Origin: Tupaia tana
Lineage: Eukaryota; Chordata; Mammalia; Scandentia; Tupaiidae
Assembly: GCA_026018925.1 (NCBI GenBank)
Contig: JAKSZU010000013.1
Location: forward strand, 78,109,791-78,173,790
DNA length: 64,000 nt
Reading direction: 5' to 3'
Shown here: positions 9,770 through 59,717 of the stretch, piece after piece
Numbering within the stretch: position 1 is the first letter of the stretch
Layout of the letters: every line of letters starts with the position of its first letter
Translations under genes and position numbers: made by a program
The notes under the pieces: model-generated
Database searches by the model: none
What the model was told of the DNA's origin: nothing
Seen by the model: the letters and a program-made list of their open reading frames with translations, nothing else

Positions 9770-10012
9770 ATAAAGCAACCTTTTAACTGGCAGCTTCAAA
9801 ATAGCCATGGAGAAAAAGGCTGAAGAGCATTAGTCTTAACTTTCTTCTCATACAAAAAGGAAGATTCAAAAAAATCTGAAAATGAAGAAATGAATTTTGT
9901 AAAATCTGAGTAATAAATAGCTAACATCACAGGTTTTTGGGATGACATGTGATACCAACCAAGCCTCTTACAAGGTATTGGCCCTCTGGGCCCTTTCTCT
10001 TTTCCATCTCAG

Positions 10013-10022
10013 GAACTCAGAC
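10013..10022 (+). other. TAL2: Splice acceptor and 5' UTR end of TAL2 coding exon
   Basis: A pyrimidine-rich tract (9991-10010) runs into ctcag|gaactcag, with AG at 10011-10012, ten bases before the ATG. This is a textbook acceptor and implies the coding exon is joined to an untranslated upstream exon. The acceptor is seen directly; its use is inferred. Confidence 0.65.
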
Positions 10023-10349
10023 ATGACCAGGAAGATCTTCACCAATACCAGGGAGCGCTGGAGGCAGCAGAATGTCAACAGTGCCTTTGCCAAACTGCGG
10101 AAGCTCATCCCTACTCACCCTCCAGACAAGAAGCTGAGCAAAAACGAAACTCTTCGCCTGGCAATGAGGTATATCAACTTCTTGGTCAAGATCCTGGGGG
10201 AGCAAAGCCTGCAGCAAACAGGAGTGACTGCTCAGGGAAACATTCTGGGGCTCTTCCCCCAAGGACCCCACCTGCCGGGCCTGGAGGACAGGACTCTACT
10301 TGATGACTACCCAATTCCATCTCCTGGCCCAAGCCATCACATTCCCTAG
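10023..10349 (+). CDS. TAL2: TAL2, class II basic helix-loop-helix transcription factor
   Basis: The 108-codon frame starts [16 protein letters not shown] and ends PGPSHHIP, and matches TAL2 of other mammals almost residue for residue from memory. Residues 2-19 are the basic region (E11, R12 and R14 in the ExxR-type DNA contact), followed by helix 1 ([10 protein letters not shown]), the loop ([11 protein letters not shown]) and helix 2 ([17 protein letters not shown]) ending near residue 53. The rest is the short proline-rich tail. The family dimerises with E proteins (TCF3/TCF12) on E-boxes in the nucleus and acts in midbrain/tectal neurons; human TAL2 is activated by translocation in T-cell leukaemia. 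The start was chosen because the upstream in-frame ATG at 9942 lies before a strong splice acceptor (exon begins 10013) and homologues begin MTRK. The coding exon is intact and uninterrupted, as in other mammals. Confidence 0.97.
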
Positions 10350-37906: not shown

Positions 37907-38046
37907 AGTTATACATATTTTTGAACTAAAAAATGCTTCAAATGGGTTTGGTCAAAACTCTTTTTCAGTTATTAATTTACTTAGACCAGCTTGACTTCCT
38001 AAGGAATAATCTGGATTCATTTTATTAGCAATAATTATGTAAGTTT

Positions 38047-38312
38047 TTTTTTTTTTTTTGAGAGGTTTTTGCTATAGGGCGTGTGCACTCGCCAGACAGA
38101 CAGAGAGACATAGAGACAGAAAGCGAGAAATCCCCCCCCCCAGGGGGGATGGTCACGCCGCAATCCCTTCTCCTCCATTCTCCTCTCGGGATCTTGGGCA
38201 CGCACGCACATGCGCCCGGCGTGAGTTTTAAGCCACCGGGTTCGGGACGCGAATCGCGGTCGACTACATGGGAGTCCAGCGACATACCCATTACGCTAAC
38301 TGCTGGTTCCCC
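38047..38312 (-). repeat. tRNA SINE, type A (young)
   Basis: TSD taagttttt. Near-consensus, CpG-rich. Confidence 0.95.
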
Positions 38313-38495
38313 TAAGTTTTTAAAGCACTTCCAAAAGTCATGAAAAGTTTAAATTTCACAATATTTACCCCAAATCTTGCCTTTCCTTACCAATTCAAAG
38401 TTTTCTCTCCATCCAATCCCTCCATTTCCTTTAAGTATATACCATTTCAATAGCCTAATAACTTAGGAACTGACCAGAAACAAATAGTCACACAT

Positions 38496-38667
38496 TTTTT
38501 TAAAAGAATTGTTTAATTTTATTCATTATTATTAGAACTTCCAATGAGAAAAGAGAAAGACACAGAGAGAAAGGGAAAGTGAGAAAGCAAGCTGCCAAGT
38601 CTGGGACTTGAACTGCAGTTGGCCATGTGGGAGTCCACTACCCCAACCACCACACCTGCCGACCTCC
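38496..38667 (-). repeat. tRNA SINE, type B at the TMEM38B promoter edge
   Basis: Ends cacacctgccgacctcc, 20-30 bases before the CpG island begins. Confidence 0.88.
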
Positions 38668-38689
38668 TACAGCCTCCAGCGGGGAGAGG

Positions 38690-39400
38690 ACGCGGGACCC
38701 TTATTGGGAGAAGCACAGTTGTGGCCTTGGCCCCGCCCACCGGCCGACCACTCGGCGCCTGCGGCTCCCCGCCCCGCCCCGCCCCGCCCCGCCCCCGGCG
38801 CCAGGGCGCACGCGCAGGAGCGGAGACGGCGGGGAGGAGCGCTCGGCCGCTGCCATCCACTCCCCGACCCCTCACCGAGCGAGCTGGGAGTGCGTCGCCG
38901 TGGCTGCTTCGGCCGCCGCGGTCGGTCGTAGTCATGGACTCTCCGTGGGATGACCTGACTTTGGCCTTTTCCCGCACGTCTATGTTCCCCTTTTTTGACA
39001 TCGCCCACTATCTAGTGTCCGTGATGGCGCTGAAGCATCAGCCGGGTGAGTGCGGGGCGCCGCGGGCAGGCCACCTCGGCGTCCCCCTCACGGCGAGGAC
39101 TGCCTGAGGCGGGTGGGCGGCCGCGCGGCCGCAGGCCCACAGTTCGGATGGTGGAGTTGGAGGAGCGTCGAAAACCGGCTCGTCTGGCCCCTCGAGTACC
39201 CATGGGGAAACTGCCGCCGGAGGAAGGAGGTTTCGATACCTGTCACAGGAGGCGCGGCGGGGGGGCGTATGGGGCTGTCCCTGCCTGCTGCGGGCGGGAC
39301 TCCCAGGGCAGGTGGCGACAGCTGTCGCGGCATTTCCGAAGCCGTGCTGCCCGCGTCTCCCGGGGCCCGCGCCGTCTCGGTGGTAGCTCCGCTCCTCTGA
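38690..39400. promoter_or_regulatory. TMEM38B: TMEM38B CpG-island promoter
   Basis: Dense CpG sequence surrounds exon 1. A run of overlapping GC boxes (ccccgcccc repeats, 38768-38796) is followed by GCGCACGCGCA at 38806-38816, a near-consensus NRF1 site, about 120 bases before the ATG. No TATA box is present, so dispersed initiation around 38830-38930 is expected. A SINE ends at 38667, right at the upstream edge of the island. Confidence 0.85.
38934..39045 (+). CDS. TMEM38B: TMEM38B exon 1 (trimeric intracellular cation channel TRIC-B, N-terminus)
   Basis: ATG in a good context (gtagtcATGG) opens MDSPWDDLTLAFSRTSMF followed by PFFDIAHYLVSVMALKHQP, matching residues 1-37 of mammalian TMEM38B with a few conservative changes. 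The exon ends with one base of a glycine codon before a canonical donor G|gtgagt (GT 39046-39047), so phase is 1. TRIC-B is a homotrimeric K+ channel of the ER membrane that supplies counter-ion current during IP3-receptor calcium release; loss causes a recessive osteogenesis imperfecta in humans. Only the first 90 or so of about 290 residues lie in this window. Confidence 0.97.
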
Positions 39401-40149
39401 CAGTATTTAGGAGTCACCTGAGAACAAAGGTCCCAGAAGCAGTCTTGCAGTGACAGAGACCTACCGGCTGCTCTGCAGTTGCGGGAGGTGTGTAACAGAC
39501 GAAAAGCCTCAAGAAAGCACAGGAAGACACCCCTGCGCCGTGTCCCCCCTTGCTCGGTCTCCACTAAGGCACAGTGTGACTTGCACTGTGGTTGCTCTAT
39601 AAATAGTCGCTTTGGACGAAGTGCTGTGATGGGATTCTTGCTCTCACAGTCGTGGGTGACAACGGGCACGAGAGAGAGTCGGTTGGCATTTTCACTGTTT
39701 GGAGAGTGGGGACACAGGCATACTGCAGCTTTCTGAGCTCTTAACTGATCAAGAGCAGTTTTGTATTTTCTTGTACTTTACATTCAGGATATACTTACTC
39801 CTAACCGTGTATGGATCTCGTCTTTCTTTGAGGTCAGGCACGTCTTTGTTTACTTTCTATTTATTCCTGCTGCCTTTCACGTGCCTTCTACAGATACGTG
39901 ATGAATGAGGGCTTGGGGATGATGCCATAGCTCTCTTACGGACTGCTGGTGTTTTTGTAAATCCTTGCCTCAGAAACACTTTTCATTTACATTGAAGTTT
40001 GTAGCTCGGTCTAGATCGTGGATTGGTAGGAATTTTGATAAGGAGAGTATTATTCTATTAATGTACGACAGATAATCACTACTTCCTTGATTTGCAAAGA
40101 AGTGTATTTCCTTACTGCTCCATATTCAAAATTTACTTGTACAGGCTAA
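39046..40149. other. Start of TMEM38B intron 1
   Basis: CpG-rich to about 39400, then ordinary single-copy-looking sequence without SINEs. Confidence 0.7.
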
Positions 40150-56641: not shown

Positions 56642-56913
56642 GGGGCCAGTAGGTGGTATAATGGTTAAGGTGCTTGAATCTCACTTGGTCTGCTGTGGTC
56701 TGAGTCCTGGACCTAGCTGCTTGAAACGCAGGCTGGGCACATGTGTGTGCGTGCGTGTGCCCAAAATCCTGAGAGGAAAATGAAAGAGAAGGGATTTTGG
56801 CATGAGCAAAATCAGGGGGGTGTAATTTCTGGTTTTCTGTCTCTCTGTCTCTCCAGCAAGTGCATGCACCCCATAGCAAAAAATCTCTCAAAAAACCGAA
56901 ATAACAAAAAGCC
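56642..56913 (+). repeat. tRNA SINE, type A
   Basis: Head ggtggtataatggttaagg. Palindrome reduced to caggggggtgtaattt. Confidence 0.9.
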
Positions 56914-57154
56914 CTTTTTCTTTTATTCATAATAAAATGTTTACATATGCAGGTGAGAGCAAGTAAGAGACAGAGTGTCAGAGAGAGCGAGAGGAGCACC
57001 TTCCACAAGAGTCTGGACACACACGTATCCCCGCTTTCCAGTCCTATAGCCCTATTGGATTTTGGGCACTTATACCTGTGTCTGGCGTGTTTCTGGCCAG
57101 CTGGGGCAGATATTTGAACTGCAGTTGCCATGTTGGATCTGGCTTTTCTTTTCT

Positions 57155-57900
57155 TCTTTTTTTTTTTTTTAAATTTCAATTTATTTATTTGCATTCATTC
57201 ACTGAACATCATTACAGCATACAAAATGAGATTTTCCATCCAAAGTACACTATATATTGTCTCAATCAAGCACATCAACAAACATGTTATTGTCAGCAAA
57301 TGATCTTCCATTTCTTGTCTTCTGTATGTTTTGCTTTTTTTCCCCCCATCCTTGATTCTCTATCTCTTACCCTCTGCCATCTCCCACTCTCCTCCCACAC
57401 TGTCTCTGGTATCTATGTTTGCTTTCTATACTGTTTTCTCCTCACATTTTATTGTATCACCAAAGACCCTAATCAATCCAAATACCCTCATAGCAAACAC
57501 AAGTGATACACACATTTCCATGAACACAAGACTTACTTTACACATCCTATAAAGTAGCACCTAGCTGTGGCTACATAAACTACTGCAGTCATTGAATAGA
57601 TATATATCTTTTTTTCCTGAAACTTTTTTTTTTTGGTAACTCAATTTACATTCCTTCCCTAAGCTTCATCACAGCATACAAAATACAATCTCCCATCCAG
57701 TACACACTGCATAGTGACACAATCATGCACATTACAAAAAATTTTCCATTACTAGTTCCTAGAATTACTTCCACCCCTCTTTCTGACCCTCTGTCCCTTC
57801 CCACCCTCCTCTCACACCACCTCCGGTGTCCACAATTGTCCTTCATTCCCTTCCCACCCACGTTGCATTGATCACACAATTTCTTACATAATCTAACTAC
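57155..57900 (-). repeat. Duplicated 3' UTR of the HAL1-type element
   Basis: Two diverged versions of one segment lie in tandem, 57623-57900 and 57155-57600. Each contains the motif cagcatacaaaat, a CT-rich (polypurine on the - strand) tract and an A/T homopolymer at its end. The homopolymer between them (57625-57636) looks like an internal A-tract on the - strand. Confidence 0.65.
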
Positions 57901-58174
57901 TTTCAATGGTGAGTTCACTCATTACTACTAAGAAAACCAGTTTTAACTTAACTCAAAGAAATGCCAAGGAACTTTGCTTAAAGCCAGGAAACAAGTTAGG
58001 ATTCTGTTCAAATGGTAGGTGCATGAACCTATCAGTCTCATGTACTTTTATCTTCTGTTCTGGTTCAATTTTCCTGATTAAATTCTGGGATATAATATTC
58101 AACTCCAGACTTGTCCCTATGATTAAGTTGGCCACTTTCATAGTTTCTGGACTCTTATTTCCGTGTGTCTGTGT

Positions 58175-59143
58175 TTAATTTTTTTGATACAGCACACCCT
58201 TGAGAACTTCTTGGAGATCTGGTCTGGTGCTGGTAAATTCTTTCAGGTTTTGTTTATCTGAGAATGTTCTTGTCTATTCTTCCCACCTGAAAGATAATCT
58301 TGCCGGGTACAGTATTCTTGGCTGAAACTGCTTCTCTCGTAACACTTTGAATATATTTTCCCATTCTCTCCTCGCTCGCATTGTTTCCGATGAGAGATCT
58401 GCTGTTAGCCTGATGGGATGTCCTTTGTAGGTAACTTGATGTTTCTCTCTTGCCAGTCTTAGTATCTTGTCTTTGTCTGCGGTTTTGGTCAACCTGGCTA
58501 TAATGTGTCTTGGAGAAGATCTTCTTGGGTTGATTCTATTTGGGGTCCTTTGTATTTCCTGGGACTGGATCTTCGAATGCCTCTCTAGGTTTGGAAAGTT
58601 TTCTTGCAGGATTTCATGGAATAGATTATCAATGCCCTTATGGGTCTCTTCACCTTCTGGAATGCCAATTATCCGGGTATTTGGACGTTTGATGGTATCC
58701 AGTACTTCTCGCATCTCATTCTCAAATTTTTGAACCATTTTCTCAGTCTTCATGGTGGATTTTTCTAAGCCAGCCATTTTCTCTTCTACATCTGAGATTC
58801 TATTTTCTGAATGATCTAGTCTGCTTTTAATACTTTCAAGGGAGATTTTGACTTCTTGTATTATAGCCTTCATCTCTAGCAGTTCTGTTTTGAGTCTTTT
58901 GTAAAGTGTGTAATTCCTCTTTTAGATCTTGCAAGAATTTCCTCATCTCCTGAAACTCGGCAACTTCTTTCTCCTTTCTCTTTAGCAGTTCATTATCTCT
59001 CTTTTCTTCCATCTCTGTTAACTTCGACATTACGAATGCTCTAAATTCCTTATAGACATTTCCATGACTTTCACCGAACTGCTTGTGGATGAAGGAGAGT
59101 TACTCTTTTCCATTGGAGGAGAGGTATTTTCTCGTTTTCCCAT
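58175..59143 (-). pseudogene. L1/HAL1 ORF1p (RNA-binding chaperone), broken
   Basis: ORF1 starts at the ATG 59143-59141 (MGKRENTSPPMEKSN). Its N-terminus shifts frame near 59035 into FVMSKLTEMEEKRDNELLKR, which begins the coiled coil, then shifts again near 58875 into EMKAIIQEVKISLESIKSRL. The RRM follows with RPNTRIIGIPEGEE (about 58690) and QRTPNRINPRR-SPRHIIARL. The C-terminal domain has REKHQVTYKGHPIRL, RREWENIF and PRILYPARLSFRWEE. A TAG then interrupts at 58276-58274, with recognisable C-terminal residues (TRPDLQEVLKGVL) continuing to TAA at 58175. About 323 codons in all, close to the usual 330-340, with two frameshifts and one premature stop. ORF1p forms trimers that coat LINE RNA. 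Confidence 0.9.
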
Positions 59144-59281
59144 ATTTCTTGTGATCCGACGGTGATTTCTTGTCATCTGATGGATGGTGTGTTCCTTTCA
59201 AATTCTTGAAGTTAAGCCTCAATGTTCAGGAGCAAGCAGACAGAGGTGTTCTAGAATCTGTTTGCCGTTCTGTTGTGATCG

Positions 59282-59438
59282 CACACTAGCTTTGCTTGCT
59301 GGAGGCTGAATTATGAGTAGAAAATCTTCATTTCTCCTGTCCCCTGAAATATCTAGTTCCCAGTAGCCATGAGGAATCTTCTGAAAGAAGGGCTCAACTC
59401 TCTTGCCACACTAGCTTTGCTTGCTGGAGGCTGAATTA
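59282..59438 (-). repeat. 33-bp direct repeat in the 5' region of the HAL1-type element
   Basis: The 33-base sequence beginning cacactagctttgcttgct occurs at 59282-59314 and again at 59407-59439, 125 bases apart. This resembles the monomer arrangement of some L1 5' promoters. Confidence 0.7.
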
Positions 59439-59511
59439 TTGGATCTGGCTTTTCTTGAGCAGTGCATTATCACTATACCATGGAGCTGACCTAGAATACA
59501 GTTTTCTTTTC

Positions 59512-59591
59512 TTTTCTTTTTTTTTTTTTAGAATTATTTAATTCTATTTAGTTATTTATTTAAATTCGATGGGGGCAGGTGGAGGGGGGGG

Positions 59592-59624
<33 letters not shown>

Positions 59625-59717
59625 GCTAGGTCTGGGACTCGAACTGCAGTCAGCCATTTGAGAGTTAGCCAGCCCCAAGTCCAGCGTTCTTAACCACCAT
59701 GCCACCTGGTGGGCCCC
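59512..59717 (-). repeat. tRNA SINE, type B
   Basis: TSD agaatrcagttt. Contains a short tandem duplication in the head. Confidence 0.88.

Follow-up and report, generated by a model that had tools for sequence, protein, structure and literature searches.

A recent half-L1 insertion in Tupaia tana and the young HAL1 family to which it very probably belongs

A 2.3-kb element on the minus strand of a 64,000-nt stretch of Tupaia tana DNA (the window, i.e. the whole stretch that was analysed) is very probably a recent insertion of a young HAL1 family, which would be derived from L1, have a selected ORF1 of its own, use L1 ORF2p in trans, and have gained a second 3′ end. HAL1 (half-L1) retrotransposons were reportedly described by Smit in 1999 and by Bao and Jurka in 2010. 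In the parts consulted of papers that cite these, they are L1-derived elements with ORF1 only, a poly(A) tail, and target-site duplications (TSDs), and they are thought to depend on L1 ORF2p (PMC5753468, PMC5322556, PMC4161310). Nearly 2,100 copies are given for human (PMC5322556), and the part consulted of a further source also presents HAL1 as an established kind (PMC4859970). The element described here has an L1-type ORF1p, lacks ORF2 as a family trait, and was inserted in the L1 manner, as is typical of HAL1s. The mark of a full-length L1, i.e. an ORF2 with endonuclease and reverse transcriptase, is missing from it.

An earlier note on this DNA had claimed that perfect 18-bp duplications enclose the element, and they are indeed exact: the 5′-end copy (59439–59456), which begins with AAGAAA on the minus strand, matches the 3′-end copy (57133–57150) without a mismatch. 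The 2.29 kb between them comprise a 5′ region, ORF1, 3′ UTR, and poly(A), all on the minus strand, in agreement with the 2.3-kb minus-strand unit proposed before. The 5′ UTR begins with a monomer array (59282–59438) of one 125-bp monomer (59314–59438) and about 33 bp of the next, visible as a 33-bp exact repeat 125 bp apart; the number of monomers varies between copies. The remaining 5′ UTR (59177–59281) lies between the monomers and the ATG of ORF1, as aligned to L057, one young L1 copy represented by its upstream part only. ORF1 (58175–59176; coiled coil, RRM, and CTD) was assigned by Pfam and by alignment with L1 ORF1, its pieces matching Transposase_22 (E 3e-33) and Tnp_22_dsRBD. Its identity as an L1 ORF1 holds, but its presumed intactness does not: the frame, 333 codons long in intact relatives, is broken here, the longest piece having 199 codons from an ATG or 215 from stop to stop.

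The absence of ORF2 from this copy was confirmed, since the alignment with a full L1 from this genome stops about 70 bp beyond the ORF1 stop. A vestige of the ORF2 start (58069–58141) is present, recognised by homology to L057 via the inter-ORF spacer and seen in divergent copies in L021 and L066; it comprises about 12 codons by blastn and, on visual inspection of translations, as many as about 24. The 3′ UTR is L1-like, as had been noted, but it is not single, consisting of two related 3′ ends in tandem. Half A (57635–58068), which has no poly(A) signal at its end, is followed by an internal A-run (57624–57634), probably what is left of a poly(A) tail where the two 3′ ends meet. Half B (57171–57623), about 75% like A in the best part of a self-alignment, contains AATAAA at 57180–57189 and leads into the poly(A) tail (57151–57170); tail and A-run were read directly in the sequence. 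The element had also been called complete. In the strict sense this term does not apply: the 5′ start is at monomer phase 0, compared with phases of 32–94 in the 24 copies with recognisable TSDs, and the 5′ end was probably cut short by part of one monomer.

The junction between ORF1 and 3′ UTR is common to many copies and is not that of one deleted L1, which upholds the HAL1-type assignment. We searched the genome (2.95 Gb) with a query from the ORF1 stop to the poly(A), a search that the earlier note had proposed, and scored 40 of 4,070 first-look candidates. The matches were unbroken across the junction at all 40 scored places, the window copy (L009) included; 37 of them covered nearly the full query and three were shorter, with identities of 93–98% besides the self-match. 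The 40 loci were extracted for analysis. In all of them, the 3′ UTR comes after ORF1 sequence with no ORF2 in between; some copies are 5′-truncated or split by other insertions, the one in L048 lying near the junction. To control for bias, loci were also picked by the 3′ end alone (eight, absent from the first list) or by the 5′ end alone (six). All eight 3′-selected loci are half-elements: ORF1 is present in five, the 5′ part is inverted in another, one is 5′-truncated just past the ORF1 stop, and the last is split by SINE-like insertions. The six loci selected by the 5′ end are likewise half-elements, each with the same junction.

Exact 32-mers gave genome-wide counts. The 32-mer of the ORF2-remnant/junction stretch occurred 2,137 times (reversed-pattern control: 0), that of the ORF1 N-terminus 1,523 times, and one near the 3′ end 2,388 times. 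A first 20-mer from the spacer, with 13 matches, was discarded as a family count, its variant being rare (1 of the 40 copies). Spacings were determined on contigs C7 to C220 for the first 100 listed places per 32-mer, which yielded 64 N-terminus places. The exact junction was found at 1,005–1,008 bp in 39 of these and the 3′ 32-mer at 1,798–1,821 bp in 35; at least one of the two was at HAL1 spacing in 56. The 3′ 32-mer was at L1 spacing (4–7 kb) in none of the 64 listed places. Full-length L1s that carry the same ends with ORF2 between, which the earlier note had named as the contrary case, were not seen among these N-terminus matches (0 of 64). Eight places had neither marker, compared with about five expected from point mutations if losses are independent; one of them, L056, is a half-element.

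Of 39 copies, 24 have a TSD of at least 11 bp, compared with 0 of 195 displaced controls, and in the other 15 none was found; three of the 24 are low-complexity (L025, L026, and L032). Nineteen of the 24 start with AA, consistent with an A-rich target. In one HAL1 copy, that of L050, the 5′ part runs opposite to the 3′ part, an arrangement known from L1 twin priming. The number of recognisable 125-bp monomers ranges from less than one to about six or seven per copy, with none above the match threshold in some older copies and with unreliable lengths for interrupted copies. The 5′ ends of the 24 copies with TSDs fall into monomer phases 32–94, with a mean of 54 (Rayleigh R 0.78, p ~4e-7), a clustering such as a single transcription start site within the monomer would produce. 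A longer form of the 5′ UTR, with a few hundred extra bases (by eye) between monomers and ORF1, occurs in L013, L021, L023, L026, L032, and some older copies, and both the short and the long form are present in young copies.

The window copy had been described as fairly recent, and its divergence agrees with this: 27 of 2,061 non-CpG sites (1.3%) deviate from the column majority. Six changes are private to it, and the closest of the sampled copies differs from it by 1.5%; the private divergence of the copies ranges from 0.24 to 1.67%. The average substitution rate of mammals is about 2.2e-9 per site per year. At this rate, from which the host's own may differ, the window copy would be roughly one to six million years old. 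The variant patterns among the 40 copies suggest several successive subfamilies.

The internal A-run at the end of half A has 8–15 nt in 34 copies. Neither AATAAA nor ATTAAA was present at that end in any of the 34 locatable copies (six of the 40 were unlocatable), and half B has A[AT]TAAA near its end in 38 of 40. The flank of L021 contains an older HAL1 (66–76% identity where aligned, ORF1 partly missing) with the same junction and a seemingly single 3′ UTR. We infer that the second 3′ end is a later gain, probably by 3′ transduction after read-through. In L011, one fragment aligns with half B (66%) as well as with the 3′ UTR of the young L1 (70%), a weak hint that the two go back to L1 3′ UTRs.

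Besides HAL1, the genome contains a young L1 family. A reverse-transcriptase (RT) query from an L1 ORF2 in the flank of L020 had 98–99% identity in all 39 scored places besides its source, and an L1 RT 32-mer occurred 1,427 times in the genome. L057 has an open ORF1 frame, and its ORF1 and endonuclease pieces pass the Pfam cut-offs; its RT fragment, which is cut by the end of the locus, is below the cut-off (25.7 vs. 29.6 bits). No intact ORF2 was seen, both ORF2 stretches that were read (L057 and the L020 flank) being interrupted. The coexisting young L1s are likely to be the enzyme donors for HAL1, presumably through an intact helper among them.

The alignment of HAL1 with L057 (73% identity) starts just upstream of ORF1, spans the inter-ORF spacer, and extends into ORF2. 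In translated HAL1 one can make out the first ORF2 codons, more clearly so in the divergent copies in L021 and L066, and the retention of spacer and first codons indicates that the rest of ORF2 was lost. The 5′ UTR of the young L1 differs from that of HAL1 (one copy, L057), and blastn of the young L1 3′ UTR (one copy, L020 flank) against HAL1 gave no convincing similarity. In the part of ORF1 that can be compared with human, HAL1 (L030) has 75% identity to the host L1, and the identities to human are 50% (HAL1) and 53% (L1). By these identities, HAL1 is derived most likely from an L1 of the host's own branch. The HAL1 relative in L018 aligns to the solved human L1 ORF1p with E 2e-63. At L044 988–5110, a HAL1 apparently lies inside the ORF2 of an older L1, which resumes after it with about 7 bases of L1 repeated. 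The adjoining L044 5111–6009 (88% to HAL1) was considered as an older HAL1 and left uncounted; its junction lies beyond the locus, and it may be an L1.

ORF1 is open over 333 codons in 12 of the 40 copies, a scan that includes the broken window copy. The selection test was based on 40 copies chosen by likeness to the window copy, with CpG columns masked, and on 35 shared variants only. Singletons in ORF1 comprised 54 silent, 171 replacement, and 17 stop changes, a replacement-to-silent ratio 1.08 times the neutral one, and those present in exactly two copies were also neutral-looking (8 silent, 22 replacement). In contrast, the variants in 3–20 copies comprised 21 silent, 14 replacement, and no stop changes (0.23 of neutral; Fisher test against singletons, p 3.6e-5), and those in 4–20 copies 12 silent, 11 replacement, and no stop changes (0.31 of neutral). 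Because shared variants are mostly silent, unlike singletons, the sequences of this sample of 40 show an ORF1 apparently maintained by purifying selection in an element without ORF2. Comparison with the ORF1 of L057 gave dN/dS values of 0.17–0.20 in 12 of 12 intact copies, which sum both branches. A selected role of a 62-aa ORF at the ORF2 vestige gained no support, its shared variants in these copies (3 silent and 9 replacement, a small number) being neutral-looking. The coiled coil of HAL1 ORF1 (L032, L018) contains an 11-residue stretch, LKRKEKEVAEF in L032, that is missing from the ORF1p of L057. The stretch is also found in the 88% copy of L044, and older L1s show other gaps at that place.

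That a full-length L1 landed here and lost its ORF2 later by local deletion has next to no probability. The window copy still has the ORF2 start, which a deletion would have spared, but the same junction is present in 40 of 40 scored copies and at 2,137 exact places at other sites, and 24 of 39 junction-sharing copies carry a TSD of their own. It is the junction common to many copies that refutes a deletion; the earlier note was right to reject it, but the duplications on which it relied would be insufficient alone. More has to be said about a repeated spin-off of HAL1s from L1s, in which case the shared ORF1 changes would be those of L1 evolution and not of HAL1 evolution. A 32-mer of the ORF1 C-terminus occurred 5,908 times, over double the number for the junction. 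Four of its places were chosen for having no listed exact junction: two are HAL1s with a mutated junction, L066 is a divergent HAL1-like element with an ORF2-start remnant, and L065 is an L1 with a normal ORF2 start, so that one exact 32-mer of HAL1 ORF1 exists in an ORF2-bearing L1. Count and L065 together mean that the comparison with L057 overstates how far the HAL1 ORF1 is set apart from L1, and both speak for repeated spin-off. Against it stand the single junction and single 3′ end across the sampled copies, and the finding of that junction in six of six copies selected by monomers. Moreover, a chimeric query of the 3′ half of HAL1 ORF1 and the ORF2 start of L065, which by our estimate favours L1s with an ORF1 at least about 90% alike, retrieved only half-elements: 40 of 40 scored matches (of 6,644 first-look candidates) stop at the HAL1 end. 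Related L1s exist, but none with a highly identical ORF1 was seen among the scored places, and we regard repeated spin-off as quite improbable.

HAL1 could instead be a passive, SINE-like passenger whose ORF1 is open through youth and which receives ORF1p from L1s in trans. The low private divergence would lead one to expect open frames regardless, and both the singletons and the variants in exactly two copies fit with this. However, the variants in 3–20 copies show an excess of silent changes in ORF1 that the adjoining ORF2 vestige lacks, and the dN/dS values against L1 ORF1 are low, though over both branches, making such a passenger unlikely. A different question is how the half-element first arose. 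A spliced L1 transcript (SpIRE-like) or a jump during reverse transcription, rather than a DNA deletion, is a serious candidate for this origin, albeit not one that we would favour. Splicing is a known way for L1 RNAs to lose internal stretches, according to the part consulted of PMC5860796. The HAL1 sequences offer nothing decisive, the 3′ breakpoint being unplaceable and no L1 with a matching 3′ UTR being present among the stretches compared.

On the preferred reading, i.e. a young HAL1 family with its own selected ORF1, an ancestral L1 of the host branch would have been stripped of almost its whole ORF2, whether by deletion, by splicing, or by a jump of the reverse transcriptase. Its 5′ UTR, ORF1, spacer, and first ORF2 codons would thereby have been joined to a 3′ UTR, an anatomy that is visible in the copies. 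The clustered 5′ ends point to transcription from the monomer array; the RNA would be translated into an ORF1p that coats it, and would be copied into A-rich targets of the L1 type by ORF2p from L1s of the same genome. Selection may keep ORF1 because elements with an ORF1p of their own are copied more often. The second 3′ end, with its poly(A) signal, would have been gained probably when transcription read through the element's own tail into a neighbouring 3′ end and both were copied. More tentatively, and with somewhat greater doubt than belief, we propose a long-lived HAL1 lineage that has split from its helper L1 in all but the enzyme, with its own monomer promoter, its own selected ORF1p with the 11-residue stretch, and a captured 3′ end. 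In such a lineage, the 11-residue stretch possibly keeps HAL1 and L1 trimers apart, and the captured 3′ end would supply the poly(A) signal lost from the first.

Full-length L1s, in which one RNA encodes both proteins, make it difficult to test a requirement for L1 ORF1p in cis separately from ORF2p. The two proteins are separated where a half-L1 that is young and abundant, with a selected ORF1, occurs alongside a young L1 family. If the long-lived lineage is real, it would be a natural test of ORF1p in cis when ORF2p acts only in trans. The doubled 3′ UTR is a concrete case of an element replacing its own poly(A) signal.

HAL1s with a maintained ORF1 have already been published, and the family is ordinary in kind; it is itself young and abundant. 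As far as the consulted parts of the HAL1 papers go, published HAL1s share with it the L1-derived, ORF1-only plan, the poly(A), and the TSDs. The 125-bp monomer promoter, the ORF2-start vestige, and the doubled 3′ UTR go beyond these descriptions, although published HAL1s may share them. A guinea pig HAL1 is similar, by description, in its long-kept ORF1 coding capacity; it is said in the part consulted to have kept ORF1 coding for about 29–44 million years, which was read as ORF1p in cis and ORF2p in trans (PMC3627910, citing Bao and Jurka 2010). A rat HAL1 said to have gained activity, with its internal promoter kept, can likewise be compared by description as a half-L1 with an internal promoter (PMC8535693, in part). 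Variable tandem 5′ monomers, and a clustering of 5′ ends at a single phase that was interpreted as the start of transcription, are shared with mouse L1Md (PMC6454616, in part). In mouse, however, the monomers are about 200 bp long and belong to full-length L1s, whereas the 125-bp monomers described here belong to an element without ORF2. Among the matches listed from the open literature, no title or abstract opening mentioned a monomer-bearing HAL1; Bao and Jurka 2010 and Repbase lay outside this scope. The term HAL1 is absent from PMC13174262.

Several other features were observed in the window and in the flanks of the loci. Copies of a tRNA-like SINE are numerous in the window by eye, e.g. 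at about 56642–56900 and 59530–59715, and ARAGORN predicted no tRNA genes in the window. An open frame on the plus strand (9921–10346) encodes a helix-loop-helix domain (E 1.7e-19) and presumably resembles the gene TAL2. The G+C-rich interval 38001–40000 (0.55), with overlapping open frames on both strands, is possibly a CpG island. Outside HAL1, the 5′-side flank of L015 matches 25 other places at 90–94% and has inverted partial matches nearby, giving it a satellite-like appearance.
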